Positions 6,432-53,580 of a DNA stretch of 64,000 nucleotides are shown here, one piece after another. The position numbers and the translations under genes are program-made. The DNA lies in contig CAJZHL010000019.1 in the NCBI GenBank assembly GCA_916048055.1, positions 897,995-961,994 on the forward strand, given 5' to 3'. The DNA comes from Pedinophyceae sp. YPF-701. Its lineage: Eukaryota > Chlorophyta > Pedinophyceae. How positions within the stretch are numbered: position 1 is the stretch's first letter; each line of letters begins with the position of its first letter. The notes under the pieces are model-generated. The model searched no databases and was not told the origin of the DNA. It worked only from the letters and a program-made list of their open reading frames with translations.

Positions 6432-7334
6432 TCTGCTTTCTTCAGGTACCAGGACCCGCGGACGAGCTTGCGGCTTCACTTCAAGCGCCAAACTAGCGCG
6501 GAACCCGCTCAGCGCCGAAGATCCTGGCCCGAGAGGGCGACGCGGACGTGCCTAGTGCCGCGCAGCGGTGCTAGCGCGCTTCCCTTCGTGCTGTGCCTTC
6601 TTGGGAGTCACGCAGGGCTGGCAGCGTCTCAATTCCTCAGGCCTCACAAGAGCACATGCAAGAACTGCTCGTGAGGCGTCCGCAGCGACGCACAGGAGCC
6701 GCCCGCCACGCCTCCCATCGCTTCCGGACCGCCAGGCTCAGTGCCGAGTCCCCAACAGCCCCCCTCACTGCGCTCCCCCCTCCAGGGCGTGCGCGCCGCG
6801 ACGCAAGTCCGACGAGCACGGGCCACGCCGTCGCCGCGCAGTGATCGAGACGCACGCCGGCCGCACCCGCTGCGCATGACGCCACCTCGGCACACTGCGC
6901 CGTGCTGCCGGGCGACGCCGGTGCGGAGAGGCGTCGGTGTCGCCGCGGACGCGGCCAGAGCAACCGACAGCGAGTGCAGGATGTGGGCTCGTTGCGCTTG
7001 CGGCCACCGCGCCGTGGACGAGCAGTCGTCCGGCGATGATGGCTGAGGGCGGCGACGACGCAGCGTCACGTGCGCGGTGGATTCGGGGCCAGGCACGAAC
7101 GTCGCGGAAGCAGCAGGGCGGCGTGAGAGTCTCTCCGACAGCGCGGCGCAGCGAGCGGCAGGTAGGCGATCGGCGGAGGGCCTCCGCTGGGGTGGTGCAG
7201 GCGGCACGTGGGTGGTCCATCTCGCATCACAGAGCGCCAGCGTGTCCGCCGGAGCTGATGTGTTCGTCAGCGATCAGTCAAGAAGTCCGCGACGCATAGA
7301 AGTCTACGCGTGCGTTCCGTCATGGACGTGGAGC
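6432..7334. other. Intergenic, between PBA1 promoter and RBCS 3' end
   Basis: No gene seen. The stretch should contain the promoter and 5' UTR of the minus-strand proteasome gene on the left and the 3' UTR of RBCS on the right. Open frames here lack domains and look like GC-driven shadows. Confidence 0.5.
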
Positions 7335-35455: not shown

Positions 35456-38400
35456 ATGGCTCGCGGGGGCGTTCCGGAGGGCGCGGGCATCGCGCAGATC
35501 GCGAACGAGGCGAAGAAGAGCGCTGTCGAGGAGCTCCATCGACTCCTGGCCACGCCTGACGATCTAGACAGCCTAGGTTCGCCACCCACACCCGTCGCGC
35601 CCCTCTGGAAGTTGCACCGGCGCTCCTGAGCAGGCAGGCCGCGTTTCCCCGACGCTACATGCAAGTTCTGCTGAAGGACGGCGTGCCCATGCGAGGACAG
35701 CCGACTCCCGCTGCGCCGCAACGAGCCGCACGTGCGTGCTTGCGCCGCATCACAAATGTTGTGGCGGACAAGGCCAATACGACACCCGTGCCGCGCCGAT
35801 ACCACGCAGACCGCTTCCAGACCGACACCGCTCAGCACCTCGAGGAGACGCGGCGATGGCTGTCTCAAATCATGGACGGGCAGGTCATGGAGATGCGCAA
35901 GGGACTGACGCTCATTGCGCACGTCCGGAGCACGCTCGAGGGGCTGCAGCGCACGGTGCAGCAAATCCAGGCACGCTGCGCCCCCCTCCACGCGCCCCGC
36001 GCCTCGTCGCGTCCTCCGGACCTCCCATGTCGCCCCCCGTGGCCGGCTCATGTCGTGGTGCGTTGACCGCGTTGCCCGACAGGCGCACGGCCCCGCCGCT
36101 GCTGCACGCCGCAGGCGCTGTGTGCGGAGTCGTGCGGGATCGTTTCGGAGCAGGAGCGGCTGCAGATGCTCGCGGTGGTGCGGCGGAACCTGCAGTCGAC
36201 GGTGGGGGAGGTGGAGGGCATCTCCGACATCCCCGCGGCGGCGGAGGCGGTCGAGGCGCTGCAGACGCGGGGCGCGGACATGATGCAGGTGTTTCAGGCG
36301 ATCGTCGCGCTGCAGGCGATGTGCGCACAGCGGAAGGCCAGCCTTGCGGGCCGTGCAAAGGGCGGCAGGGGCGGCGCGGCGCTCAAGTCAGGGCTGGAGA
36401 CGCTCGGGCTCAACGAGTACTTCCAGAGGGCCGACGCGGTCCAGGACAAGTTCGAGGTGCGGCCGCGCAAGCTGACGCCCTCGCCATGGCCGGCTTCCAA
36501 GCGACTGTGCTTCTTGCGTGGTGACGACCAGATCCCTTGCCAACGCTTCCTGCAGAGCCAGCTCTTTGGCATTTTCGAGAATTTCCTGGCGGTCGCGCAC
36601 GACGACCCCGCACGGCTGGTGGAGGCAGCGCAGATCGTCGTCGTGCAGGAAAAAGTGCAAGGCCTGCTCGGTGCGCCACACGACCGCATGTGGCGAGCGT
36701 CGTGGATTGCGTGCGCAACTCGATTGTCTTGCCCCTGAATGTCAAGTCCGTCAGGCGGTCAGGAACGTCTGGCCTCACGAGAGGCCTGCGTGTCGTTGAA
36801 CACCGCAGCTGCCGAAGATGGAGGCAAGGGCGGGAAGGCGTCAGCCGCTGCGCTGAAGGCGGCCTCGCTGCCGTCGAACTACCGGCAGCGCATGGAGGAC
36901 GCCATCCGCGAGGGTGTCGTCGCGCGCTTCAGGAACATCGACGCCATGTGCCGCGAAATCGTGCAGGCGGTGCGGGCGGCGACGGCGTCCGCTCAGGCCG
37001 CGGAGTCGCGGCCGGGCCACAGGCGCGGCGTCTCGTCGCTGTTTGGATCCGCGGTCGTCGGCGACGCGACCGGTGATTCGGTCGGCGGCGCGAAGCAGGG
37101 CGCTCCGGGCCGCCCCGCACAGCGCGTTGAAAAGAAGACCGACGTGATGGAGCTGCTCGACGTGGCGGACGAGCTCATGCAGGCAAGCGCCCCCCGCCCG
37201 ATGCGTGGCGTATCGGTTGCGATGCGCGCGGAGCCTGGCGGGCGCTCAGCTGGCGTTGGCTGTGCTGTTTTGCGCAGGAGCTGTTTTTCGTGTTCGACCA
37301 CGTGGCGCCCTGCCTGCCTCCCGCGGACGTCGGGCGGCGCGCGAAGAAGGCGAAGGACACGGATGAGGACGACGCCAGCGGCGACGGCTCGCCAGGCCAG
37401 GGGGGCGACGAGGAAGACGGTTCGATTCCCACCATGGATCCGTTCCGCCTCATTTGGTCGGTGTACCACGAACGTTTCGAGGAGTGCCTGCGGATGCTCG
37501 GCGAGGGAGCGTCCGTCTGTTCGAACGCCGAGGTGCTGGCCATCATAGGCTGGGCCATGACGTACGTGTCGCGCGTAGGCGCGCTGGGCATTGCGCCGTC
37601 GCTTGCGTCGTTCGCCAAGCCGACGCAGCTCCGTCTGGACGGCGAGCTCGGCGACATTTTCGGGTCGACGAGTGAGCAGGGCGATGAGGCGCGCGAGGAC
37701 ACCCTGGAGCTCGATTGGGAGAGCTGCGGGCTGGGTGCATTGATGGACACATACATCAAGCGCACCCTGGAGGCAGTGCGCGGCTGGGCGACAAACATTG
37801 TCACGGCGGACCGCGAGGCGACGCCGAAGCAGGACACGAGCGGGCTGGCCTACACGGATGCGCCGACGGACCTCTTCCGTTTGGTGAATGACCAGTTGAC
37901 GCTGAGTGAGAAGGTGTCGTGCCCGGAGCTCACGGCGCGCATGCTCGGGGGGCTCGCCGGGATCATCAGCTGGATGGCACGCGCGAGCGAGGACGAGCTG
38001 GAGGGCCCGAGCGGGGCCGAGGGCCAGGGGTTGGGAATTGAGCGATTGTGTGCCTTGATCAACAACATGCTGCAGAGCTACGACAACGCGCTCGACCTCC
38101 AGGTGAGCGCCACGCAGACCACGACCATGCAGCGCGACGCCTTGTACGAGCACGCGACGCCTGCGAGGCGGTGGAGCGTTCGATAACGGTGCTCTTGTGG
38201 CTCCTGCGTCGCTCTGAGCCGTGCTCGCTGCTGCTGCGAGCTCGGCGCAGGAGACGATCGAGGAGCGGCTGCGGGGCGCGGAGTTCATGGGCAGGCGGCG
38301 GGCTGCGGTGGCGCAGCAGGTCGGGGACGCGGCCGCGGACTTCCTCTCAGTGTCGCGCCGGGCCATCACGGAGCTGTGCGGCTGCATCATGCGCGACCCG

Positions 38401-39246
38401 GGGACCGCGGAGCTAACGGGACAGCTCTGCGTAGAGCACAGGGGCGGGTCTCGGGCGGACGGGGCCGTAGGCGGAGAGTGGGCTTCAGGGCGGGCGATGG
38501 GGGGACTGATTGCCACGGTGCACGACTACATGAACGAGATGGGCGTACTGCTCAAACGTCCGGCGTACGAGCGCCTCGTCGAGGCGGTGGTCGCCGAGAT
38601 AGCGGGGACGTACGCCGGCGCGATCCTGATGCGGCTGCAGGTCGTGGACAACGCGGCGGTGCGGCGCATCCACGACGACGAAAAGTCCCTGCGCGCCTGC
38701 GTCTCACTCCTCCAAGAAAAGTCGTCCGGGTGGGTGGCCACGGCGCCTCGCTCGCTCGCGATGCAGGTCGCTTGACGGCTGGCTGTTCCGTAGCCTCGCG
38801 TGCCCGTCTGTTGCTGAGTTTCGGCCCTGCTGTGATGTGTCTGGACTCGCAGGGGCAAGGCGGAGAAGCGCGTGCAGGCCGCCGTGCAGCCGCTCGCGGA
38901 CTTGCGCGAGATGCTGTCGATCGACTCGGTCGAGTCGGCGGTGCTGGCGTACACGACGCTCCTGCAGGTCGACGCGGGCGTCACGCCGCACATGCTGGAG
39001 CGCCTCCTGGCCTCGCGGCCGGACCTGGGCAAAGAGGACCTCGCGGAGATCATGGAGGCGATTCGCGGCGTGCAGATGGCGGCGGGGAGGTCCGGCCCGG
39101 CGGAGGGCGGCGACGCGGGCAGGAAGACGCCGAGGATGCGTCTGGGAGCGGTGTCCGGGCAAGCGGCTGCGGCGCGGTCGGCGCGGCCGGGCGGGGCGAA
39201 GAAGGCCGGGCGGGGCGGTCGGGGCGGCGGCCACAAGCGGTCGTAG
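35456..39246 (+). CDS. SEC6: Exocyst complex component SEC6
   Basis: Eight exons (35456..35576, 35810..35970, 36115..36456, 36556..36670, 36809..37182, 37278..38102, 38251..38729, 38853..39246) join in phase to 936 residues, longer than typical SEC6 (~750). Family marks are the N-terminal IANEAKKSAVEELHRLLATPDDL, the coiled segment with LQMLAVVRRNLQSTVGEVEGI, DELMQELFFVFDHVAPCLPP, the all-helical C-terminal part, and LIATVHDYMNEMGVLL...YERLVEAVVAEIAGTYAGAIL. The protein tethers secretory vesicles to the plasma membrane within the exocyst. Two introns fit only as GC-AG (CAG/GCACGC after 35970; CAG/GCAAGC after 37182). The C-terminal 60 residues are Gly/Arg/Lys-rich, unlike other SEC6 proteins. 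The least certain joins are exon 1/2 and the acceptor of exon 4. Confidence 0.88.
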
Positions 39247-39258
39247 AGGTGTCACAGC

Positions 39259-39263
39259 TGTAA
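39259..39263 (+). terminator. TGTAA polyadenylation signal of SEC6
   Basis: TGTAA, the usual poly(A) signal of green algae, lies 13 bp after the SEC6 stop codon. The position is close to the stop but fits the compact genome. A single pentamer can occur by chance. Confidence 0.45.
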
Positions 39264-39380
39264 CCCGTCCTCCGCAAGCAGGAGATAGGTCGTGACCCGG
39301 TCACACCCTGTAGTCAGGGCACAGCCGCTAGCGCCTCGAAAGATGTCCTCGAAAGAGCGACATTTTCGGGTCGCCTACTT

Positions 39381-39459
39381 GGAGGTCGCTGCGAACAGTC
39401 CTCCAGTACCAGAACTTGTGTTCTGAGGTTTTTTTCTGTTGCCCCGCACGCTCGCGGGG
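39381..39459 (-). ncRNA. Candidate structured guide-RNA region at the 3' end of the Fanzor gene
   Basis: Three short inverted repeats lie within 80 bp just 3' of the Fanzor stop codon (39503). They are ggagg/cctcc at 39381-39404, agaac/gttct with a 4-nt loop at 39411-39424, and ccccgc/gcgggg with a 6-nt loop at 39442-39459. Fanzor and TnpB guide RNAs arise from the region overlapping or following the 3' end of the nuclease gene, on the same strand. The placement fits that model, but the hairpins are small, and no transcript evidence exists. They could also belong to the SEC6 or Fanzor 3' UTR. Confidence 0.3.
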
Positions 39460-39502
39460 CCGCGTGCGACGCTGGTCCTGGAGTCGTCGACGCCTCCTGG
39501 AC

Positions 39503-42181
39503 TCACGTGCGCCGCGACTTGGCCTTGCGCGGCTCCTTGCACCAGCACTTCAGCATGTGCACCTTGTGCTGGCCGCCGCCGCCGACGCCGCCGCCGCCGC
39601 CGCCGCCCTCGCCGGGAGGACAGAGGTAGGCCGGGCGGTCCGGAGCGGCCGCCTCCGCCATGTTCTTGGCGGCGTTTTTGTCCCTTGCCACCTTTTGCTC
39701 GCAGATGGGGCACCACCGGACGTCGTGCACGACGTGATCGTGACTGGCGTCCGGCCGCCGCGCGTGCGCGGGAACGGTCCACTTTCGACAGCGCCAGTGG
39801 GCCCTGGTGGTGAAGTCCTCCGCCACGGCCTTGAAGTCCGGCTGGAAGGTGAGCTTGGCCTTGCGACGATACGTCTCAAGCGGGACGGGCAGGCATCCCC
39901 GGCCGGTCCCGGGGAACGCCGCGTCGCCGCACGCCATGAGGTGAGGCGGGCGCTTTTTGCCGTCTCCGTCGCGCGCGCAGCACCTCTTGGCGCCCCGCAG
40001 GTCGCGGCTGATCGCCTTTTGCGACAACCGGTGCGCCCTGAAGCGCTCGCGCGCCCACTTGAGCTGCGTGCGCAGCCGCCAGATGTCGTCGCGAATGGGG
40101 CCGTAGGCCTTGACGGCCTTCTCCATGTCGGCGCGACTGGACGTGGCGAGCCCCTGCATCACCTCGGCGAACTTGGCGGGGAGGGGCTTCGACCGCGTGC
40201 GAGACGCGACGGACTTCGGATCCCGACGAAACACGCCGACCCTACCCACCCGTTCCTGCCCCCAGCCCCGCGTGCGCCGCGCGCGTCGCCTCTGGCCGCT
40301 CTCTGTGTGGTAGCGGGCGGCCGAGAACGCGGGGCGCACGATGAACTCCCCGTCCGGGCGCTTGACGACCGCCTGGGAGATGTTGATCCGACCGAGATCC
40401 ACCCCGACGACGCACTGACCTTCGAGCGGGCCGCCAGCGGGCTCCTGCGCCCCCCTCTGTCCGGCGGCCTTCTGTCCCTGTGACACCTTCCGCGCCTTCG
40501 TCCGCCGCGGCTGCTTCTTGCTGAAGTGGAAGTCGATTCCGACGCCGTCCGTCGCCACCAGCCCGGAGAACGTCCACCCACCGGCCCCGCGCATGCGCCT
40601 GTGCGGGTCGTCGTCGGGAGTGTGCGCGGGCTCCTCGAAGCGAGACTTCGTCTTCTTCTTGCGGCCGCTCGTCTTGTCCCCCTTGGCCACCTTGCCGCGC
40701 GGCACCACGGTGTCCCTGCGCTCCCGCCGCAGCTTCCGCTTCATGACGAACACCTTGGGCCACCAGAAGTTGGCCGCACGCTTCTTGAAGGCCTCCAGGC
40801 CAGCCCTTCCGAGGGGGTCGAGGTCGTTGTCGGTGGGGCCGAAGTGCGCCTCCCAGTCAGCGCGTGAGACCCGCGCGCGACAGGCGCGAAGCAGTCCCTG
40901 GAGGACCTCCGGCGAGATGGGCACATACTGGCGCCGCACGTGGGGGCGTAGGGCCAGAGTAAAGGGGCGTCGCAGCTTGAGCTTGTGGATGTCGCACTTC
41001 CTCAGCAGGAACGCATAGTAGCGCACTACCTCCCAGGGGTGGTTTTTGCGCCACTCCTCGTCCCACACGACGTCCTTCTTCTCCTTCTCCTCCTTGTACC
41101 AGCCCACCCCCAGCCCGGTGGCGGCGTCGACGACCAAGCGGGAAGCCTCGCGCTGCTCAACCCACTCGCGCGGTTTCAGGACCGCGCGGTGCTCCTTGAT
41201 CAGCTTCTTCATGTCTCGCGTCAGCTTGTAGGCCTTGCGGGACATGGTGCGCTTCATGTCCTCCGACGGCGGATCCCCGTTGATCTGGTCCACGATGCTC
41301 CGGAGACGCCACTTGCGCACGTCGCGCGTGTCGTCGGGCGCCATCTTCAACAGCAAGGCGCGGATGACCTTGCGCTGCCGGGCCTTGAAGGTCACGTCCG
41401 AGCCCAGGCTCTGGAACGCGCGGGCCAGGTCGCCGGCGACTCTGTTAAAGGCGTGAATGTCCCCCTCCATGCGTGCCCCCTCCGCAAGCGTCGCCGGGAG
41501 CCCCAGGGCGTCGAACTTCTCGAAGGACGGCTTGAGGCCGATGGCGAACGCCGGGGAGTGGATGTCCTGCGCGGTGCCCGTCATCGCATGAAGGTACATG
41601 CTCTTCACGCCGGCGTCGCTCTCGATGTCGAGAGCCCTGTGCAGGTTTTGCTCCTCGCGCTCCAGGGCCAGGAGCAGGGCATGCTGCACCAGCATGTTGG
41701 CGACCTCCGCGCGCTGGCTGACCCACAAATTGAACTCGCGCACCAGCTCCAAGAACGCCTCTCGGAGAGGCCCGCTGAACTGGACCGCTCCTGACAAACT
41801 GAGCTTGATCGCGTCCTCTAGCGTGAACTGTGACGGTGTGGACGAGCTGCTGCTCCGACGCCGCTTCGACCCGTGCTCCGTGAGGAAGCGATTATGCGCG
41901 TGCCCGCGCTCATCGGTCACCACGCCACGTGCAGCACCACGGCCTCGGCCACCACGGCCTCGGCCACCACGGCCTCGGCGATCCATGGGCAGTGGCCTGC
42001 ACGCCTGCTGGCCGATGTCGCCGAGTCTAGTCGACTCGGCGGCTGCCCGCGGCTCCCGCGTGGGCCTGCGGAGCGACGGTGAGGACAGCTCCCGAAGGTG
42101 AGATGGGGAGGCTGGGCTCGACGAGGGCGAACGACGCACGTGCCGCCTCAGCACCGGGAGGGAGGGTGCGAAGGGCATCAT
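39503..42181 (-). CDS. Fanzor: eukaryotic TnpB-like RNA-guided nuclease
   Basis: Intronless, 892 codons from the first ATG (42181); a later ATG at 41986 would give a protein starting MDRRGRGG. The N-terminal part is disordered with an RGG-type run, then a long helical domain, then a basic segment (GRKKKTKSRFEE). TDGVGIDFHF at 544-553 is the block before RuvC in Fanzor proteins. RuvC I is VVGVDLGRINIS (Asp595), RuvC II VAEDFTTRAHWRC (Glu788), RuvC III VARDKNAAKNM (Asp834). A zinc knuckle HxxC (795/798) and CPIC (824-827) lies between II and III. All three catalytic acids are present, so the enzyme may be active. GDAAFPGTGRG before RuvC II also matches Fanzor. The tail has a Gly run and a last CWC. 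It is convergent with SEC6. Which Fanzor group it belongs to, and the ends of the element, are not resolved. Confidence 0.9.
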   Translation of the reverse strand: MMPFAPSLPVLRRHVRRSPSSSPASPSHLRELSSPSLRRPTREPRAAAESTRLGDIGQQACRPLPMDRRGRGGRGRGGRGRGAARGVVTDERGHAHNRFLTEHGSKRRRSSSSSTPSQFTLEDAIKLSLSGAVQFSGPLREAFLELVREFNLWVSQRAEVANMLVQHALLLALEREEQNLHRALDIESDAGVKSMYLHAMTGTAQDIHSPAFAIGLKPSFEKFDALGLPATLAEGARMEGDIHAFNRVAGDLARAFQSLGSDVTFKARQRKVIRALLLKMAPDDTRDVRKWRLRSIVDQINGDPPSEDMKRTMSRKAYKLTRDMKKLIKEHRAVLKPREWVEQREASRLVVDAATGLGVGWYKEEKEKKDVVWDEEWRKNHPWEVVRYYAFLLRKCDIHKLKLRRPFTLALRPHVRRQYVPISPEVLQGLLRACRARVSRADWEAHFGPTDNDLDPLGRAGLEAFKKRAANFWWPKVFVMKRKLRRERRDTVVPRGKVAKGDKTSGRKKKTKSRFEEPAHTPDDDPHRRMRGAGGWTFSGLVATDGVGIDFHFSKKQPRRTKARKVSQGQKAAGQRGAQEPAGGPLEGQCVVGVDLGRINISQAVVKRPDGEFIVRPAFSAARYHTESGQRRRARRTRGWGQERVGRVGVFRRDPKSVASRTRSKPLPAKFAEVMQGLATSSRADMEKAVKAYGPIRDDIWRLRTQLKWARERFRAHRLSQKAISRDLRGAKRCCARDGDGKKRPPHLMACGDAAFPGTGRGCLPVPLETYRRKAKLTFQPDFKAVAEDFTTRAHWRCRKWTVPAHARRPDASHDHVVHDVRWCPICEQKVARDKNAAKNMAEAAAPDRPAYLCPPGEGGGGGGGVGGGGQHKVHMLKCWCKEPRKAKSRRT
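41935..41979 (-). repeat. 15-bp tandem repeat encoding RGG-type residues
   Basis: The unit ggcctcggccaccac is repeated about 2.7 times and encodes the Arg/Gly-rich GRGGRGRGG run near the N terminus of the Fanzor protein. Such runs can bind RNA or act in nuclear import. Copy number is likely variable. Confidence 0.8.
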
Positions 42182-44147
42182 CGCGCAGTGCGGCAGCGGC
42201 GCGCGCTTCGTGCAGTCGCCGGAAGGCGCCGCGGGGCCCCTTTCAGACGACGCGTTGGCGCAAGGCGGGGTTCCAGGCCGCCGTGCCAGGCCGACTCACC
42301 TTGAGGTTCGCCATGGAGGTGGTGGTGTCCTCCGCGTCCTGAACGCTTGGGATGGCCTCCGAGCCAGTGAGCGAGACCTGCGCGATCATGGGGCGAGGCG
42401 AATGGGTCGCGGACATCGCAGAGACGGGCGCGCGGGGCAGGGGGGGGGCCGCAGGACAACTGCGCCGCTCCGCGGGGGCGTATGAGCGAAGCGCGCCACG
42501 TCGCGGCCGTTCCGCGTCGGTATGAAACAATTGATGGAGGGCGCGGAGGAGCGAAAGCGCGATGAGCAGCGTCTGTTGCGGCAGGCCACCACCTCAGCAG
42601 GATCGCGGGGCGCGGCGGCGCCGTCTTCGCGCATGGGGAAACGGGCGCGGTCGAGACATTCATCGCGATGAAAGCAGCGGGAAACGCAGAATCGGGCCGC
42701 GAGGCGCCTTGGGAAGCGCGACCATGGAGTCAAGGGCAGAGCGCCTGCCGACGGCAGCGCGGGAGATGGTTGTCCCGCGCGCGCGCACGGAGATGCCGCA
42801 TCAATCGTTCGGTTATCATTCGGTTCAGCGCTCAACAGCGCCTCAAGCCGTTGCTTTTTGGGGCAACTGTGGCTCGCATCGGGTTTTCGGCGTCAACACG
42901 CCGCTTCCGCCGTTTGCGGAGACACAACGACTCAGGAGAAGCCTGACAGGGCGTCCGTGGGGCGGCACGGGCTCCAAACCCCTCGTCCGGAGCGCGTGGC
43001 CGGCCACAAGGGAACAGGTGGTCACCTCGTGTGCTCACTCGAGTCTCGATTACCGCTCTGGGATAGTTGCCTCCTCGCCTTAGATTCGCAGCGCCTACCG
43101 CAGAGGGGCCGGCGTGCCCGTAGTTGCGACGCTGGGCGCGCAGCCGGCCTCTAGGACGGCATGATGCCGGCGCGATGGGGGTGTTGACAACAGTTGTCCG
43201 GCCATGCTGGGCGGAGCGTCGCTCAGCGACTGCCCGGTGCATGATGGCAGAATGTGGAGGACGGGCGAGGGCGCATCGCAGGCCGTGCGTGGACTGCTTC
43301 CGGGCGCCTCCATCCACGCGATCGGAGCCCCGCCAGTCAGGGTGAGAGAGCCTCACCTCCCTGAGAGGAGCAGGCACCCCGGCGTGCCATCCGGTGCCGG
43401 GGATCCCGGCGCCGTGCAGTTCGGTGGTTGCGGCCGATGTCGTGGACATCACTGTGGGGGGGTCGCGGGGCGTACCGGGTGACGCGTGTGCCTCGCCGGG
43501 CAACTGGTGCCGAGCGGCCGGCGCGCACTGTGACGCCTTCCCCCCCGGGAACTCGGCCCGCAAACACCTGCCGCGGGCGGCACACATCCGTAGGCGGTGG
43601 TTCTATATCGCGCCCCCTGCTGTCAGTGCTCGTTATCGCCCGCGGCGACGCTGCGCTTGCCTGCATGGGACCACGCGGAATGCGGCGGACGCGAGGGCCG
43701 CGACGACTCGCCCCCAAGGTCGCGCTCGCTACTGGATGAGCGCACGGATGCCGGTCGATACCCGGATCGCTCCACCACCGGCCCGCAGGAGCCCGCGACC
43801 CAGCCCGCGCCCGCTGGCGTGCCCACGGTCGCCCCCGCACCTCCTCTTCCGCGTGACACGAGCATCTTGAGGGCTCAGCACGGTCCTTCGGCGTCGAGGG
43901 CCGCGTCTGCTGTGCTGCGTGGGCGCATGCGCCGGCACGGCCGCGGCACGACCTCGAATTGGAGCTGTCAGGCCTGCTCGTAGCGACACCCGGTTCCCTG
44001 ATCACAGGGTCGGGCACACAGCCCGAGGTCTAGCACGGGCGTGATGAAGATGCGCGATCCGGCAGCAGCGCGGCGGCCGAGCCAGTCCTCACTCGTGCTG
44101 CGGGCCCCCTCCGACTCACTCGCAGGGTACGAAAGATCGCTCAGGTC
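42182..44147. other. Gene-poor region upstream of Fanzor
   Basis: About 2 kb without a supportable gene, unlike the rest of the window. It should hold the Fanzor promoter and perhaps one end of the mobile element. Local composition changes around 42,830-43,080, which is richer in A and T. No terminal inverted repeat could be established by eye. Confidence 0.4.
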
Positions 44148-44693
44148 GTGCTGCCGGACCACGAGCCCGCGGCAACCCCGGATCCCCGGACCGAGGTCAC
44201 TCAGCACGGGCTTGGCCGCACACGGGCCAGGTACGCCTGGTGGTGCCAGCCACCACCACCGCTCACCATCCCTCCACATCTGCTCGACACCGCGATCTAC
44301 CACGCGGACCGCCGTGCCTTGTCCCGCCTGCGTGTGGGAGCTACGAGGCTGCGCACCTCCACGATGGCCATGGCGGACCAGGAGCAGCAGTGGCAACACA
44401 CACCGCTGTCGCACCCGTCGAAAGTCTGCCGCTTCTGCGTGGACGTGGCGGTCTCGCCCGCCCCGGAGGACCTCCGCCACCTGCTGCTGGACTGCTGCGC
44501 CCCAGCGGTACGCTCTCTCCGGGAACGAGCGGGCCTGGCCATGGACTGCGGCGCTGGTGTCACAACAGACGGTTCTCGTGCCCCGTGGCGGGCCAGTTTT
44601 GGTAGAGAAGCAGTGATTGCCGTGCAGGGACGAGGACACTCACGCCCTGGGGTCAACGCAGCGCGTCGACATCGTGATTCTGCACACAAGTAA
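44148..44693 (+). mobile_element. Relic of a non-LTR (LINE-type) retrotransposon ORF, C-terminal part
   Basis: The frame reads DRRALSRLRVGATRL followed by KVCRFCVDVAVSPAPEDLRHLLLDC. A 'LxRLRxGxxxL' segment followed by C-x2-C-x(n)-H-x(n)-C is the usual end of LINE ORF2 proteins, after the reverse transcriptase or RNase H (zf-RVT-like). I see no reverse transcriptase or endonuclease upstream in frame, so this is a 5'-truncated fragment. The tail is basic. An alternative is a chance zinc-knuckle-like frame, but the order of the parts argues for a relic. Confidence 0.5.
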
Positions 44694-44707: not shown

Positions 44708-46629
44708 TCACGCATGCGACACCTGCGCGGCAGGGACTCCCAGCCGCCCCTTCGCCGCCGCCTCCTCGACCCGGCGCGCTATCTCCTGCGCTGCGCTCTC
44801 CGGTGCGATGCGGCGCGCAGCCTCCGCCATGGCCCTCAGCCGCGCCCCGTCGTCGAACAAACCCAGCACTTCCTCGAACAGCCGCTCCGGCGTGAGGCTG
44901 CGCTGCAGCACGGCCACCGCCGCGCCAGCGTCGGCCATCGCCTCCGCGTTCAGCCGCTGGTGGTCCTCGGCCACGTGCGGCGCAGGAATCAGCACGGCGG
45001 GCGTGCCGGACGCCAGCAGCTCGCTGCACGTCAGCGCCCCGGCGCGCGCCACGACCAGCGCCGCGTTCGCGTACTCCTTCGCCATGTCATCGAGGAAGGG
45101 CACCACCGTCAGACGCGGGCCCTGGGGGTCGATACCCAGGGCTCGCACCTCGCGGCACACCTCGTGGTGCGCCGCCCGACCGGTCTGCCACACGATCCGC
45201 ACGTCCGGCTGCAGCGAGTGCAGCAGGTCGACCAGGCTCCCGAGCACGGCGCGGTTGATCGGCGGCGCGCCCAGGGAGCCCCCTAGAACCAGCAGGTTGC
45301 GCGACGCCCCCCGCGCCCGCGCACGCTGCCGCTCCTCGCGCCAGTCCATCAGACGCCACACTGCCTCCCTGCGCACAGTGCGCCGGAGGACTGCTCGTTC
45401 GTTTCGGGAGGTCGAGCGCCGCGTGCCGGTGCAGCTGCGACGTGTGCAGTCGGTGAGCGGTCGGTTTGCGTGGCGCCCACGTGGGTTGCCGGCGCACCTC
45501 TCGCGCCCGACCTGGAGAATGCTTTCCCGCACAGGATTGCCCAGCACGGAGCAGCGCCCGCGCGGCGCGCGGAGTTGTTGGCATGCGGAGGGATGCGCGA
45601 CGCAGACGTGTGCCGCCAGGGGGGCGAGCAGACGGTTGGCGAGCCCCGGGCGCGCGTTCTGCTCCTGGATCACGACCGGGACGCCGAGCAAGCGCGCAGC
45701 CAGGCACCCTGGCACGGACACGTAGCCACCTGCGCATGGAAGGTCGACACACCAGTTCGCGGAGACGTCGGGGACGAGCGCGCCTGTGGTCAGCAGGGGG
45801 ACATCGCGAGGGCGGGGGTGCCATCGACACAGCTCCAGGTCCACGGCTGCGAGGGCCTGTGTGGGGGCTGTTGGGGCAGGAGGCGGAGGAACTCACCAGT
45901 GCCGAGTAGGACGTGCGGTCTGACCCGCGCGACGTACATCGCGGCCTTGATGATCGACATGAGCACCCGGAAAGGCGCAAGCACGTTCCAGGGCAGCCAC
46001 AGCGGGCGGCGCAGCGAGACCGCCTTGACTGGGTGCGTCGGCAGGCCGTGCTCCTTGGCGAGCCGCCACTCCATCCTGCGGTGTCGCAAATTTGAATCTC
46101 GCATCATGCGTGGACGATGCGGCAAGATTCACTTCGGAATCGCCCTTCCGCGGGCCACGGCGAGCCCGGAGGCAACATGCACTGGCAGCTGCCCAGAACC
46201 CTCGCGTCCCCTGCGCAACACGCGCCCTCCCGCGATCCTGCCGCACCTGCGAGGATCCCCCATCAGACTGATCGAGACATTCCACCCGCGCGCCTCTCCG
46301 AGCTCGCGCACGGCCTCGGCAACCGACAGCGCAGGGAACACGTGGCCGCCGGTGCCCCCAGCGGCCAGCACGACGCGCCATGTCGGCCGCTCAACCGCGT
46401 CTCCGTCACGACAGGACGCCCGCGCACCTCGACGTCGCTGCCAGCGTCGCCGCCGCGGCCAACACTCGAGGCCCGCTGTGAGGAGGCCGCTGCGTGCCCG
46501 AACGCGCTTTGGGTGGCTAGTTCCCGCGTCCGAGCGCACGGAGCACGTCGATGCATGCGTTCGCCGCGCACAGCGGAGGGCCCCGTTGCCCCGCGCGGGC
46601 GCGCAGGGCGGGGCGCCGTGACACGGCAT
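44708..46629 (-). CDS. murG: MurG, UDP-GlcNAc:lipid I N-acetylglucosaminyltransferase, plastid-type
   Basis: Four exons (46247..46629, 45897..46075, 45498..45729, 44708..45368) join in phase to 484 residues, about 120 longer than bacterial MurG because of an Arg/Cys/Ala-rich N-terminal extension (~80 residues), a likely plastid transit peptide. Diagnostic blocks are AAGGTGGHVFPALSVA (91-96 for GGTGGH), LEWRLA-type [91 protein letters not shown] and HQRLNAEAM. The enzyme makes lipid II in peptidoglycan synthesis; several algae and land plants keep it for plastid division. Three spliced introns (GTGCGG, GTGAGT and GTGCGC donors) show it is nuclear, not bacterial contamination. Confidence 0.93.
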
Positions 46630-47373
46630 GGTGTGACGCCCGCGCGTCTGGGCGGCACGGCGGGACGTGAGCTGCCACGAGCACAACTGCTGCGCTACTG
46701 CGCCATCCCGCGCATCCGTGTCGGCGGACACACCGGTCCTCGTGCTGTGTCAACCGTGAGCGAGCTGCCTGTGCGTCGCCCCTGCGGGATTCGCGGGGCT
46801 GCCACGTCACAAAAGCGGGTCGCACGCCGCGAACGCCCACTCATCTGAGCAAGGACGCGCCGGGCGCGAGCACATGGCGCGCGCCTGCCGCCTTCGAGCC
46901 GCCCCGGGGCACGGCGTGCTGGTCTCACCACGTCATGGGGCTACCGGCTGCGACTGTCCCCCGCAGGGCCTCGCCCGGGCCCGTCGGGGGGCGCGAACGC
47001 GGCACGTGTGCAGACCTGATGGTGTTGGCACGTGCGAGGGCGCGCCCATCCAGTCAGCCTAGCACAGCTGCGCATTCAAGGCCCAATCCTTGAGGCAGCG
47101 GACCGGCTCCGGGCGGCGGCGTCGGGCAACGGTCGGTGTTTGATTGGAGGCACGCGATTGCTTGGTGGCCTGAGTTGGATTCGGAAACTCATATCCGGTC
47201 CACCTGCCAGCCTGGCGCGCGTCATCCTGCCTTGACACTCTGTGTAGGTCGCCGCAGCGCTGCCTGCTTGGCAATTTGTGGCGCTCGCCGCCGAGACAGC
47301 CCTGCGTGGCATACGGGTTCAGATTTCGTTGATGTCTCAGGTGTGCCGGCGCTGGTAGGGGCCTCACCGAAGC
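46630..47373. promoter_or_regulatory. Divergent intergenic region murG / cyclase
   Basis: 744 bp between divergent starts, expected to contain both promoters. A further upstream exon of murG cannot be excluded. No gene seen. Confidence 0.4.
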
Positions 47374-50300
47374 ATGCGCTTCCAAGGAACGTTTCTCCTC
47401 CTCGCGCTCGTCGTGGCCGTCGCGGGCCCGTGGGTCGCACGCGCCGGCTCACTGACGATACGCGAGTCGATACGCGCGAGCAACTCGGAGCACTCGATCC
47501 TCTACGGCGACGACGCCAGGCTCTCCAACGAGCACGTCCACGCTCGGCAGGTGCGCTCACTGCGGAACCCCGGCGAATGTGCGGGTCATTTGGCTCCTGG
47601 ATATATTTTTGCACGCTTCTGTTGCTGCGGGGCGCGTAACGCCCGCTCAACGAGCGCCGCCGAGCGCATCGGCGCCGACTTGCTCCAGGGCGGAATTGGG
47701 CCGCCCGTGCACATGAAAGGCAGCCCTTCGAAGCGTGTTCGCCTAGGATACCCATGTACATGGCTATATTCCCGAGCACGGTCTCCTTCACGCACCCGTA
47801 GCCGCCCGGCTCGGCCGAGGTGCTGTGCCGGCCCTGAAACCCTGCGCGGCAGCGGACCGCCGACGCGCATTGGCGTCCGGAGGCTCCTCCATGCCGCCCA
47901 CAACGCGGCTCGCTCTGCTGGACCGCCCCGGGAGCCCGTTTCCCGGGCACGCGCGCACTTTGACTGCTCAGTCTCTCCTCCGCAACCTGCTCGCTCACAC
48001 GTGCGTGCCTCGGCCTCTCGCAGGTCGATGGGGCTGCACATGGCGCTGGGATGCGCCCGATGCCGCGGGCCTTGGTGCAGGGTGCCTTTGCGAAGCGTTT
48101 CCTGCAGGCGGGGGATGCAGGGGGTGACGACGGGGAGAGCGGCCGCACGCCCTCCGAGCTGGTCGAAATCTGCCACGACGTCCTCGTTGACAGGTCAGCG
48201 TCTCGTCCCCGCGCCCTTCTGGGCGCGAGGTGCCCGTGCTGCGCTGCGCAGCTGGGTCATCCGTTCAGGGCTGGCCCCCTCACGCGCGCGCAGCTCACCC
48301 GGCCCCGCGCGCCCGGTTTGCAGGAATTGGAGGCACATCTTGGCACAGGAGATGCCCGCGACTGTCTTCGTGCTCGCCTTGGGCCTGCTCCTGATCATCG
48401 GGGCGCGCTACGAGGGCTCGCAGAGACGTTTGCTCAACCTCGCCAAGGGCCGCGGTCCGCCGAACGTCGGGCGCTCCGTCACGATCGTCGTGACGGACGT
48501 CGAGGTGCGGCGCCCCGCGCCCGCCCAGCCCCGCACCCGCCTGCCCTCCCGCGCCTTCACGTGCCTGGCACGACCGCCCACCTGGCCTGCCGTCCCGCCC
48601 GCTGCTGCGCCGCAGGGCTCGACCGAGCTGTGGGAGGAGCTCCCCGAGGCGATGTCGAGCGCGAACGAGATCCACGACGCGACCCTGCGCGCGTACCTGG
48701 GCCTGTACAAGGGCTACGAGTGCTACACGGAGGGGGACTCGTTCGTGCTGGCCTTCCACGAGCCGTACGACGCGATCGCGTACTGCCTGACGGTCCAGCA
48801 GGCGCTCTTCGCCGCGCAGTGGCCGGAGCAGATCCTGAACCACCCGCGCGCGCAGTCGCACGTGAGCATGCCGTTCCGCGGCCTCAGCGTGCGCATGGTG
48901 GCGGCGACGGGCATGGCGACCAACCGGCAGCGGCACCACGTTACGCGGCGCTTCGAGTACACCGGCCAGGTGATGGAGGTCGCCAAGGAGCTCGCGGACT
49001 ACGCGCACGGCGGGCAGATCATCTGCGACAACCCGACGATGGTGGGCATCGCCGATCAGCTCGAGCGGCTCTTCTCCACGCTCGAGACGTCGCGCGACCT
49101 GACCGCGCTCGACAAGGGCAACGTGCAGCTCATCCTCCAGGGCATGGCGGACGCGGGCGTCGTACCGAACCGGCGGTGGCTCAAAACGGAGGGCGAGGAC
49201 ACCACGCACTCGTCGCGGCCCGACAAGTCCGTCACGGTGCCCCAGGAGGTCGCCGCGGAGGTGCAGTCGCAGCTCAGGGCGGGCAAGCAGAGCCGCAAGA
49301 AGCTGCGCGTTCGCATCGCGAGCCCGGACATGGAGAGCTCGCCCGACCCCGAGTCGCAGCTGGCCACCCTGGCGGGGCTGCCCTCCACCGGCGACGACCT
49401 GCTTGCGAGCGCGGCAAAGGCGCTGGAGTCCTCGGGGTCCTCCGGCGGCCTCGCGCCGTCCACAAGCGGAGGCAGTGACTCGGCCATGTCGGGCCCGCAG
49501 CGCCTCGCCACTGACTCCGCCGGGGAGCCGATCGACCCCGACGGGACCGCAAGCGTCGCGGTAGCGCCGGCGAAGTCGCCGTCGCGCGACGAGGCGCGCC
49601 GCGCGGGCGGGTTCCTGGAATTTCGCGCAACGAGTGCCTCGGGGCAGGCGCCCGCCAGAGCGGCGTCCTCTCGCGGCCGGTTCCGCAGCATGATGGTGGG
49701 TAAGCGCGACGCGAAGACTGCGCGGCGCAGCATGGAGCTCCCGGGCCCGGAGGAGCGCGTGCGCGAGAACGAGAAGCGGTACCGGAAGCGCACGGCGCAC
49801 CTGGCGCGGATCGACCTGCGCACGATGCTGCAGGGGAGGACGCTCGAGCGTCTTCAGGTTGCGTCGCCGCAGGGGGACACGGCAGGCGGTGCGCGCCTGC
49901 ACGGCGGGGGCGGGAGGCCTATGCCTTCCACACAGCAGCTTTACAAGACTTCCAGCCACAGCGCCGCCATCGTCAACGCGGTCGACACTCGCCAGCTGGA
50001 AACGGCATCATCCGCGGGCATGGAGTTTGCGCGGGAGATTGCGGAGCACCTCGCGGCGTCAGACGTCAACATTGGCCTCAATCTCTCGACTGTGGCGGAG
50101 GCGCCGATGGAGGGCAGCATGACGAACACGCTGGGCGGCACAGGGCCGGAGGAAGGCTCGTCGGAGGTCGCCGCCGCTCGGAGCGCCAGCCCCGCGAAGG
50201 ACCTCCACGCCCTGGAGGAGCATGCCATGGGGTCGCAGCATGAGGCGCCGCGCGGCGCGCCGGTGGAGGACGGCGAGGCGGAGAAGACGCCGGGCGCCAC

Positions 50301-52038
50301 GAGGCCGCAGATGGCGCCGGCAGTGCTCGCGCAGGCTGCGGCGGTGCAGCGCGGGAAGACGCTGATGGCGCTGGCGACGTCCAAGGCGCGGGCCAAGGCG
50401 ATGGTGGGCCAGCAGCTGCGGCAGAAGACCAAGGTGTCCAACGTGGTCAAGGCGCTCGCCAAGGCCGAGGACCAGCGGCACGAGCTGCTGCGGCTGCAGA
50501 AGTCCATTTCGGGGCAGGTCAAGGGGCAGGTCACCGTGCTCGACATGGGCGTGTACCACCTCAACTGCCGCGCGAAGTTCCAGGGCGGCAACGCGTCGGG
50601 GCTGGACGACGGCATCACGGTGGCGCAGCAGCGCCAGCGCGCGCGCGAGAACGTCTTCCAGGTCCTCGTGCCGTACATGGAGGCGCGCGCGCACAGCTTC
50701 CCGCCGCTGGCCATGCGGCAGGTCGGGCCGGGCTACCCCGACGCCCCGGGCGCGATGGACGCGCTGATCAAGCAGACGTACTCGGTGTGCCCGCACGGCG
50801 TCGACCTGCAGGCCTGCGCGGACTGCCTGGAACACGGCACGACGCTGAACGACATCGACTGCGGCAACGCGCTTCCGAACGTGACGATCTGCTTCTGCAC
50901 GCCGTGCTGCGTGGACCGGCTCACGGCGCGCGCCATCGGGCTCGCCGACGTCTGCATGGAGATCTACTCGCAGATTGTGCGCTCGACGCTGCTCGAGTTC
51001 TGGGGGTACGAGTGCCAGGACCTCGACGGCGCCTTCATGATCGCCTTCCACGACCCGGGCCGCGCCATCCAGTGGGCGATCCGCCTGCAGGAGGCCCTCG
51101 TGCAGGCCCCGTGGCCCGAGGCGCTCATGGACATCCCTGGGTTCGAGGTCGAGCTCGACAAATACGGGAAGCTGCTCTTCCGCGGCCTCACCGTGAAGAT
51201 CGGGATTTTCGAGGGCCGGCCCGTCAAGGTGGAGCCGCACAAGATCACGGGGCGCGCGGACTACTTCGGCCCCCTGGTGAACCGCGCTGCGCGGCTGTGC
51301 TTCGGGCTCGCGCAGGCCGGGAGCATCATGATGGACAAGACCACCGCCACGCGCGGTATGCAGTCGCTGCTGGCGTCCGGCCTCGCCGTGAAGGGCGTCG
51401 ACGGGCCGGACCACCCGGGGCGGGCAGCCATGCGCGTTCGCTACTCGTCGCTGCCCACGACGTCCGGAGGCGCGAGCAACGGCGCGATCTCGGCGGTCGC
51501 GTCCATCTACGGGATGCAGACGCCCACTTCGATGGGGGCGTACGGGCAGACCGCGACGATGATGGCCGCGTCCAAGATCTGCCATGTGGTGGATGCGGGG
51601 ACCGTGGCGTTCAAGGGCGTGCAGGAGCCGCTCGAGTGCGTCATGGTGTCCGGCGGAGACCTCATCGGGCGGTTCCAGGGCAAGGACCTGAAGATGGGCA
51701 AGAAGGCGGAGATCGTCCGGCGGGGATCCGGAGCGCCCGAGGTGTGGTGGCTGGTGTCGGCGGCGAACCCGGGGACCGGGACGGATAGCAACTTCCGGCA
51801 CACAATTGAGCCGTCGGACGGCCACAGCCACCTGCAAATGTCGCAACCCGACATCCTGCGGACCAGTTCCGTCAATGCCAAAGAAGACGACATGCCAGCG
51901 GCCGGGGAGACGCCGCGGACGCCCACCATGGTCATTCACAACAACGCGTTCATCGGGTCGTCGAGGAGCGAGACTGGCAACGACGGGAGGGCTGAGGAGC
52001 AGGAGCACGACGAGGACTGGCGAAGGAACGAGGTCTGA
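47374..52038 (+). CDS. Membrane class III adenylyl/guanylyl cyclase with two cyclase domains
   Basis: Four exons (47374..47550, 48024..48193, 48324..48504, 48616..52038) give 1316 residues. The order is: signal peptide (MRFQGTFLLLALVVAVAGPW), a short extracellular part of about 100 residues, one membrane helix (126-143, VFVLALGLLLIIG), cyclase domain C1 (~165-330), a long disordered Ser/Ala/Pro-rich linker, and cyclase domain C2 (~930-1100). A Gly/Ser-rich tail follows. C1 keeps both metal-binding Asp residues (VVTDVEGSTELW, D174; EGDSFVLAF, D217) but has EVAKE where the Asn/Arg motif is expected. C2 has NVTICFCTP and LDGAF instead, yet keeps DYFGPLVNRAAR (D1058, N1065, R1069). The protein probably makes one composite site within one chain. 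Whether it makes cAMP or cGMP cannot be stated; D1058 at the purine-binding position leans to ATP. Confidence 0.85.
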   Translation: MRFQGTFLLLALVVAVAGPWVARAGSLTIRESIRASNSEHSILYGDDARLSNEHVHARQVRSLRNPGECAGHLAPGYIFARFCCCGARNARSTSAAERIGADLLQGGIGPPVHMKGSPSKRVRLGYPCTWLYSRARSPSRTRSRPARPRCCAGPETLRGSGPPTRIGVRRLLHAAHNAARSAGPPREPVSRARAHFDCSVSPPQPARSHVRASASRRSMGLHMALGCARCRGPWCRVPLRSVSCRRGMQGVTTGRAAARPPSWSKSATTSSLTGQRLVPAPFWARGARAALRSWVIRSGLAPSRARSSPGPARPVCRNWRHILAQEMPATVFVLALGLLLIIGARYEGSQRRLLNLAKGRGPPNVGRSVTIVVTDVEVRRPAPAQPRTRLPSRAFTCLARPPTWPAVPPAAAPQGSTELWEELPEAMSSANEIHDATLRAYLGLYKGYECYTEGDSFVLAFHEPYDAIAYCLTVQQALFAAQWPEQILNHPRAQSHVSMPFRGLSVRMVAATGMATNRQRHHVTRRFEYTGQVMEVAKELADYAHGGQIICDNPTMVGIADQLERLFSTLETSRDLTALDKGNVQLILQGMADAGVVPNRRWLKTEGEDTTHSSRPDKSVTVPQEVAAEVQSQLRAGKQSRKKLRVRIASPDMESSPDPESQLATLAGLPSTGDDLLASAAKALESSGSSGGLAPSTSGGSDSAMSGPQRLATDSAGEPIDPDGTASVAVAPAKSPSRDEARRAGGFLEFRATSASGQAPARAASSRGRFRSMMVGKRDAKTARRSMELPGPEERVRENEKRYRKRTAHLARIDLRTMLQGRTLERLQVASPQGDTAGGARLHGGGGRPMPSTQQLYKTSSHSAAIVNAVDTRQLETASSAGMEFAREIAEHLAASDVNIGLNLSTVAEAPMEGSMTNTLGGTGPEEGSSEVAAARSASPAKDLHALEEHAMGSQHEAPRGAPVEDGEAEKTPGATRPQMAPAVLAQAAAVQRGKTLMALATSKARAKAMVGQQLRQKTKVSNVVKALAKAEDQRHELLRLQKSISGQVKGQVTVLDMGVYHLNCRAKFQGGNASGLDDGITVAQQRQRARENVFQVLVPYMEARAHSFPPLAMRQVGPGYPDAPGAMDALIKQTYSVCPHGVDLQACADCLEHGTTLNDIDCGNALPNVTICFCTPCCVDRLTARAIGLADVCMEIYSQIVRSTLLEFWGYECQDLDGAFMIAFHDPGRAIQWAIRLQEALVQAPWPEALMDIPGFEVELDKYGKLLFRGLTVKIGIFEGRPVKVEPHKITGRADYFGPLVNRAARLCFGLAQAGSIMMDKTTATRGMQSLLASGLAVKGVDGPDHPGRAAMRVRYSSLPTTSGGASNGAISAVASIYGMQTPTSMGAYGQTATMMAASKICHVVDAGTVAFKGVQEPLECVMVSGGDLIGRFQGKDLKMGKKAEIVRRGSGAPEVWWLVSAANPGTGTDSNFRHTIEPSDGHSHLQMSQPDILRTSSVNAKEDDMPAAGETPRTPTMVIHNNAFIGSSRSETGNDGRAEEQEHDEDWRRNEV

Positions 52039-52960: not shown

Positions 52961-53312
52961 TGCGCAGTCATGCACGTCCACACCTGCACGACGGTGAGAC
53001 AATGCGGGGATCGTTCAGGAAGCGCACAGCGTGCTGCGTGAGTCTCTGAACGACCCCAGGTGACGACGGGCCTTCGTGCCTCGGTCCACCAGCACGTCCA
53101 GAGTCCAACCGACATGAGTCAGTGTGCCAGTCCCCCCAGGGTTGTGTATCCACGCTGCCACCGCACCGCCGTAGGGGCACGGCTGCAGCAGGCCTTCATG
53201 AACTTCGTGGGATTGTCGGGCTGGGTGGAGTACGCCTCGGAGAGAACAAGCGCGGACCATTACTGGCGCATGGGGGCGCGTAGCACTTTCGACGCTTGAG
53301 CGACCGAATGGT

Positions 53313-53370
53313 AGTTCTTCGCTGACCTACGAGCACCCTCACCGCGAGGATGCCGGAGCGACCGAAATGG
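53313..53370 (+). repeat. Copy of the short repeat family
   Basis: Reads gttcttcgctgacctacgag, then caccctcaccgcgaggatgc and cggagcgaccgaaatgg. It is nearly identical to the copy at 53,491, but diverges after aatgg, where the other copies continue with tacggcaggcgag. Confidence 0.8.
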
Positions 53371-53455
53371 CACGCGTTCTTGGGCGCTGGGCTGCTGCTG
53401 GATTCACAATGACTAGACTCGCTGGGGGACTAGACTCATAGTTCTTCGCTATAGT

Positions 53456-53580
53456 ACTTTGCTGACCTACGAGCACCCTCACCGCGAGGATAGTTCTTCG
53501 CTGACCTACAAGCACCCTCACCGCGAGGATGCCGGAGCGACCGAAATGGTACGGCAGGCGAGACTCACACAGCAGACAGT
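53456..53580 (+). repeat. Two tandem copies of the short repeat family
   Basis: The core gctgacctacgagcaccctc + accgcgaggat occurs at 53,461-53,491 and again at 53,500-53,530, directly after ttagttcttc-like linkers. The second copy continues into gccggagcgaccgaaatggt and acggcaggcgagactcacac. Shared borders suggest local duplication or a non-autonomous element. Confidence 0.8.

Follow-up and report, generated by a model that had tools for sequence, protein, structure and literature searches.

The window analysed here, 64,000 nucleotides at the end of contig C19 of the green alga Pedinophyceae sp. YPF-701, contains an open frame of 892 codons (39503-42181) that the initial annotation had assigned to an intact, intronless Fanzor, a eukaryotic RNA-guided nuclease of TnpB type. 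The frame was borne out; it lies on the minus strand (the annotation gave none) and its plus-strand reading is broken by stops. It forms part of a repeated unit on the minus strand (39252-44547) that is 94.5% identical to a unit on contig C28. In the direction of the gene, this unit comprises a 3'-end fragment of a long interspersed nuclear element (LINE; plus strand, 44125-44547, inner boundary approximate), corresponding to LINE nucleotides ∼ 389-811 from the tail, which is itself missing; a segment X without coding assignment (minus strand, 42859-44124, boundaries approximate); the presumed original Fanzor element (minus strand, 39374-42858); and a right flank of ∼ 120 nt that is shared between copies. 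The left limit of the Fanzor element is set where the match to the copy on contig C29 stops, the right limit where the copies on C29 and C16 diverge after CCAAGTAGG. Comparison of the copies shows that the unit terminates on its right side with TGTGA (39252-39256, minus strand).

A search of the 27.9-Mb genome for further copies, as the annotation had suggested, returned three more open Fanzor copies and one remnant, so that the family comprises four open copies (named after their contigs: C19, the window copy, C28, C1 and C29) and the C16 remnant, which carries an in-frame stop. The C1 paralog alone (L011; P0002 about residues 577-686) has a tandem repeat of the PPRSKAQKVEPA type just before RuvC I.

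The public protein of the window gene is P0001 (804 aa, 'unnamed protein product', Pedinophyceae sp. YPF-701). It equals the 892-codon frame from residue 119 onward, the first 118 residues of the frame being replaced by a spliced exon. In this gene model, exon 1 (42300-42389, also located by copy comparison) is followed by an intron (41828-42299, GTGAGT...CACAG) that holds residues 1-118 of the open frame, and by exon 2 (39503-41827), which from the frame and the paralog alignment is assigned the Fanzor1-type protein body; all three are on the minus strand. A gene free of introns is thus not supported: a GTGAG(T/C) donor follows exon 1 in all four open copies, and the intron is retained in each of them. 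Codon composition of residues 1-118 differs from that of the remainder. Exon 1 stays in frame in three copies but carries a frame shift in C29, and neither C1 nor C29 conserves the acceptor. The window protein may therefore start either with the 892-codon frame or with the spliced exon of P0001.

At the DNA level, indels between the window copy and C28, its closest relative, are multiples of three in 4/4 cases in exon 2 and in 3/11 cases in the upstream noncoding part. Exon-2 indels of the more distant pairs behave similarly (18/22 for C28-C1, 13/15 for C29-C1 and 13/17 for C28-C29). Together with P0001 and the three further open copies, this indel pattern argues that the window frame is more than a chance frame. 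As judged from its sequences, the Fanzor family here is or was coding.

The RuvC acids D595 (40399-40397), E788 (39820-39818) and D834 (39682-39680), all within exon 2 on the minus strand, occupy the residues given in the initial annotation, as do the TDGVGIDFHF and GDAAFPGTGRG blocks; the acids are invariant in comparison with P0002, the paralog from contig C1, and in the four-copy alignment. The TDG motif (T544, D545, G546; minus strand, 40552-40544, exon 2) is invariant in the four copies and in the metagenomic protein P0003. A TDG motif precedes RuvC in the WED domain of Fanzor1 (PMC10711439), and we infer that the TDG region of the window protein is the WED domain. According to the same paper, the RuvC2 Glu of Fanzor has a shifted position (Ealt), with six residues separating it from the zinc finger, and this spacing is found here (E788-DFTTRA-H795; E892-FHTTKA-C in C1). 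The zinc knuckle reported between RuvC II and III is present, although in the window copy it reads HxxC...CxxC, as opposed to CxxC...CxxC in 3/3 open paralogs, with His795 (minus strand, 39799-39797, exon 2) at the position of the first zinc ligand. From D595, 195 residues lead to T791, T792, R and A, followed by H795xxC798...C824xxC827, a further 5 residues and R833 D834. Apart from the His in place of the first Cys, the window copy conforms to the Fanzor/TnpB motif D-X(125,275)-[TS][TS]XX-[C4 zinc finger]-X(5,50)-RD (PMC3627910), whose C4 finger is present in C28, C29 and C1. The two CxxC positions are 25 residues apart in the window copy and 34 in C1, outside the 12-18 residues of the published Fanzor search pattern (PMC10711439).

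The curated cut-off of PF07282 (Cas12f1-like TNB, 26.3 bits) is passed by P0002 (28.2 bits), and in a scan of the genome by three loci, C28, C1 and C29 (31.6-33.9 bits), the window copy not being among them. The guided_TnpB model, whose cut-off is 100 bits, scores no more than 22-24. Aligned by hhalign, the profile of the copies matches P0003 with a probability of 96.1 (E 3e-9, 273 columns). Searches of a set of 5.8 billion proteins, one of which scored the 8000 candidates with most shared words, matched the window gene, the C1 paralog and P0003 (E 1.4), and scans of viral contigs confirmed no relative. Two results weigh against the assignment to Fanzor. Sequence searches of the PDB returned no Fanzor match, the nearest matches being weak alignments of the TNB end to LaTranC (E 0.019-0.076); many other PDB matches were set aside as glycine-linker similarity. 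In addition, RuvC1 reads DLG in C19 and C28, DNG in C29 and C1, and DRG in P0003, not the DPG that Fanzors carry 'near exclusively' (PMC10711439). Since the Glu and TDG layout is present, DPG is absent and the solved Fanzors are not reached by sequence methods, we call the window gene a divergent Fanzor1-type rather than a canonical member. The earlier proposal that this green alga has a gene of TnpB/Fanzor type is supported by RuvC acids at matching positions and by the repetition of the gene in the genome.

A stretch rich in invariant columns follows the stop codon at five loci (C19, C28, C1, C29 and C16) and ends in CCAAGTAGG. C29 and C16 diverge directly past this end, whereas C19, C28 and C1 have in common another ∼ 120-140 nt. 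In the window the block extends behind and across the stop codon (39374-39512, minus strand). The fold of 39365-39512 has a z-score of -3.79, and none of 200 shuffles was equally stable. In its last stem UACUGGAGG is paired to CCUCCAAGUA; C29 shows one compensatory pair there, and in C16 one pair is broken. In an RNA model of the block 93.4% of cells pair, compared with 37-46% in slid versions. Against these results, only 2 of the 37 pairs of the model show changes on both sides, a number matched by 54/500 shuffles, and covariation was rejected as proof of an omegaRNA because it is too weak. A search of Rfam gave no match at gathering thresholds. Based on conservation, stability and position, we read the 3' block as a putative omegaRNA scaffold.

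Exon-2 windows of the Fanzor subfamilies are 59-92% identical to each other, which indicates that the family is old in the YPF-701 genome. Recent arrival from outside is therefore not supported; only the placement of the window copy looks recent. Four open copies and one remnant are in keeping with Fanzors being carried by mobile elements in several copies. Three copies (C19, C28 and C1) sit in units of 5.3-6.3 kb. In C28 and C1 the start of the unit coincides exactly with (TGAGG)n, which is the LINE 3' tail on the other strand, and the flanks of the two units are unrelated. The LINE segment itself is abundant: at least 42 matches to the left part of the unit were found, 34 of them in the LINE segment alone (40 of 195 candidates scored). 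At 15 of the 17 LINE-segment loci inspected the sequence parts from the units at LINE nucleotide 811, and at the other two it ends slightly earlier. A longer LINE copy contains a 1,404-aa frame with an RVT_1 match (E 6.9e-28). At the 5' junction of 14/16 truncated LINE copies (from 4 nt inside to 16 nt outside) there is a TGTRA, a motif present in 0.83% of random 20-mers; the copies on C10 and C3b lack it, and two of the 16, on C5 and C2, seem to represent a single locus that was duplicated. The three Fanzor units (3/3) end in GGGTTACA, 2-4 nt and TGTGA.

Other candidate structures were set aside. Terminal inverted repeats of the unit were rejected, as the 25 inverted pairs listed, of 55, have arms of 16-34 nt with 71-94% complementarity and no common ends, and ∼ 200 nt of the 5' part of the element that resemble pieces on C14 and C3 lead to another repeat family. 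A 3-kb repeat that is 98% identical between C13 and C3 (L042 3059-6047, L043 3769-6770) is 83-84% similar to part of segment X. On C16, a 51-nt piece of the LINE end lies ∼ 120 nt past the 3' block of the Fanzor remnant (L039 4767-4817), and the LINE copy on C8 contains a 1.57-kb insert (L041 2953-4521) with a 5-nt CACTG duplication on either side.

From the unit boundaries we infer that the Fanzor units have been copied by the LINE, antisense to Fanzor. Taken as a whole, it seems to us on balance probable, though by no means secure, that the locus belongs to a divergent Fanzor1-type (TnpB-descended) family of RNA-guided nucleases that has been copied antisense with a LINE tail, and of which the window copy is perhaps impaired. 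The original element of ∼ 3.5 kb would have become attached, in antisense orientation, to the final 811 nt of the LINE, and the composite would then be copied by the LINE machinery, with priming at the (CCTCA)n tail and insertion at TGTRA sites. Since RNA in the sense of the LINE runs antisense to the gene, such copying would keep the Fanzor intron; it would also freeze the guide inside the unit. The 3' block would be processed to an omegaRNA with CCAAGUAGG as the end of the scaffold, the 15-20 nt that follow would guide the protein to DNA beside a target-adjacent motif (TAM), and the RuvC D-E-D site would cut the target DNA.

Several observations weigh against copying by the LINE. The window unit has no LINE tail and starts inside the LINE, at nucleotide 389. 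The C8 locus has the junction between X (196 nt) and LINE with no TGTRA at its end, the C29 copy has no LINE end, and no clear target-site duplications were found at the Fanzor units. The TGTGA of the three units could, in part, be shared through descent. Finally, C28 and C1 are 95-100% identical in the windows from the LINE to mid-intron and then 59-86% through exon 2; as their left parts are nearly the same yet their exon-2 windows differ by 14-41%, the units are mosaics and recombination is also needed. The mosaic identity, the missing tail of the window unit, the C8 junction and the lack of clear target-site duplications would all be compatible with a scheme that accepts the Fanzor identity and attributes the multiplication of the units to duplication or recombination at the DNA level, with the LINE at one end by chance. 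We consider this scheme a serious candidate but an unlikely one, because the LINE tail is precisely where both the C28 unit and the C1 unit begin, within unrelated flanks, and because every unit ends at the motif that is found near most 5' junctions of truncated LINE copies.

The claim that the window copy is intact and may be active was only partly sustained. Its frame is open and D-E-D is kept; however, His795 stands where C28, C29, C1 and P0003 have Cys, and its match to PF07282 is sub-threshold (15.6-15.9 bits). At sites that are fixed in the other three copies, the window copy differs 5 times ahead of the TNB and 15 times within it; the corresponding counts (before TNB/in TNB) are 3/2 for C28, 39/5 for C29 and 49/2 for C1. 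In the TNB windows 6600-6900, C28 is 89-92% identical to C29 and 72-88% to C19, and C28 may have received its TNB part from a C29-like copy. Since the C28 TNB resembles that of C29, part of the 15 window changes may reflect subfamily divergence rather than decay. The ratio of nonsynonymous to synonymous substitution rates (dN/dS) of the window copy is 1.71 against C28, 1.02 against C29 and 0.95 against C1; it spans 0.89-1.71 over the 6 pairs of copies, with synonymous sites that are GC-biased, and was rejected as proof of either activity or decay. His can bind zinc. The window copy could be pictured as an intact and active Fanzor in which His795 is a zinc ligand and the diverged TNB, possibly an older subfamily form and not a decayed one, reflects a preference for another omegaRNA or target. 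The open frame and the D-E-D site agree with this picture, but we regard it as rather unlikely: all three open paralogs and P0003 have Cys at this position, the TNB profile score is below the cut-off, the 15 TNB changes fall at sites fixed elsewhere in the family and dN/dS gives no sign of purifying selection (a weak argument, given the GC bias of synonymous sites). We suggest instead that the window copy may be impaired and losing function, since its zinc finger is altered even though the frame and the RuvC acids persist.

The window unit lies beside Sec6, an exocyst gene on the plus strand whose exons match PF06046 (E 2.2e-15 and 5.7e-8). Its predicted last exon, which has no Pfam match, ends at 39246, and the unit sits 6-10 nt beyond the predicted stop codon. 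Sec6 and a MurG-like gene are arranged tail to tail, with the Fanzor unit filling the gap. By its position after the scaffold, the 17 nt at 39357-39373 (minus strand) would be the guide, a length to be compared with the ∼ 15 bp of the stable Fz1 heteroduplex (PMC11423790). A pattern search of the genome located a single other perfect match to these 17 nt, which lies in a Sec6 exon 1.7 kb off (37651-37667), on the same strand as the putative guide. There were 0 matches at one mismatch and 9 at two, including the C28 unit; a reversed control pattern gave 6 matches in all, against 11 for the 17 nt itself. For the equivalent positions of C29 and C1, the rest of the genome contains neither a perfect nor a one-mismatch partner. 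The unit contains 5,280 17-mers, 8 of which are found again at other places in the window: seven are a GGC repeat and the eighth is the putative guide. We estimate that the two 17-nt direct repeats in the window that are not of low complexity are near chance expectation, and this one falls exactly at the guide position. Already 14/17 nt are present in the C28 unit, and no common TAM-like flank was seen at the Sec6 site.

It is improbable, though conceivable, that the LINE-copied unit carries a fixed guide through which the window copy acts on Sec6 as an RNA-guided tether, drive or regulator; if so, this role might be regarded as a eukaryotic counterpart of the guide capture by domesticated TnpB. 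Slightly more doubtful still is retention of the window copy in the role of an RNA-guided regulator or tether of the neighbouring Sec6. The perfect match, the sole one in 27.9 Mb, and the lack of such partners for C29 and C1 would fit, but the match was found after the fact, most of it is already in a C28 unit that is located elsewhere, no TAM-like sequence is shared and the RuvC acids are retained. That an unrelated protein resembles Fanzor by chance is very improbable: there is no significant PDB match to Fanzor or TnpB, the guided_TnpB scores fall far short of the cut-off and GC-rich DNA does give long chance frames (510 aa stop to stop opposite Sec6), but three copies pass the curated cut-off of PF07282, the D...E-six-zinc...RD layout occurs jointly with TDG, and a conserved 3' block lies at the expected place.

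On the other side of the unit, the MurG-like gene (minus strand, 44708-45892 and 46129-46749) matches TIGR01133 (E 1e-58, 199 bits, cut-off 250), PF04101 and PF03033, which suggests that a pedinophyte has a peptidoglycan enzyme in its plastid. It is followed on the plus strand by a 1559-aa stop-to-stop frame (47359-52038) with a match to an adenylate/guanylate cyclase domain (PF00211, E 1.2e-6). A tandem 39-nt repeat (2.1 copies, 92% matches) occupies 53312-53530, with related exact repeats upstream at 53312-53351.

If Fanzor is spread by a LINE in this alga, the nuclease would be uncoupled from cut-and-paste transposition, its guide would not be reset at each new site, and the role that Fanzor plays for its carrier could be tested within a single small genome. 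The four open copies, which recombine, share one 3' block and include one with an altered zinc finger, also form a natural series in which the functions of omegaRNA and TNB could be dissected.

The solved Fanzor1 structures, SpuFz1, GtFz1 and PpFz1 (PMC10432273, PMC11423790), resemble the window protein in the RuvC D-E-D site with its Glu just before the TNB, in the zinc finger of the TNB and in TDG, and a 3' omegaRNA would be expected here as well. They differ in that they give no sequence match, and in that the YPF-701 proteins have DLG or DNG and a glycine-rich C-terminal tail, the first zinc position of the window copy being occupied by His. The third RuvC acid is Asn in GtFz1 and Asp in the window protein. 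P0003 (712 aa) shares TDG, D-x-G, GDGxF..G.G and E-six-CxxC...CxxC...RDVNAAKN with the family, but is only 22% identical overall and has DRG at RuvC1.

Fanzor1 genes have been tied to DNA transposons of the Helitron, Mariner, Sola, IS4, MuDR, hAT and Crypton types. In green algae, Fanzor1 occurs in the Helitron-type elements CRe-1, 2 and 3 of Chlamydomonas (PMC3627910), and Auxenochlorella has an abundant Fanzor repeat (PMC12633428). These resemble the YPF-701 family in being repeated and in having truncated copies, and the Chlamydomonas genes are also spliced; they differ from it in that two YPF-701 units have a LINE 3' end as their left end. No Helitron-type ends were identified in the YPF-701 Fanzor units. 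The available sections of PMC3627910, PMC10711439, PMC10432273, PMC11423790, PMC6338049 and PMC12633428 do not mention Fanzor in YPF-701 or in a LINE, which is not proof of its absence from print. TldR proteins, RNA-guided transcription factors of TnpB descent (PMC13418256), would be comparable under the Sec6 reading only, as TnpB-type RNA-guided proteins aimed at a host gene; they are bacterial or from phages, whereas the window copy is algal and keeps its RuvC acids. For the copying itself, HAL1, an L1-derived family without its own reverse transcriptase (PMC3627910), offers a parallel in that it relies on LINE machinery in trans. HAL1, however, carries the ORF1 of the LINE, whereas the cargo in YPF-701 would be a Fanzor in antisense.

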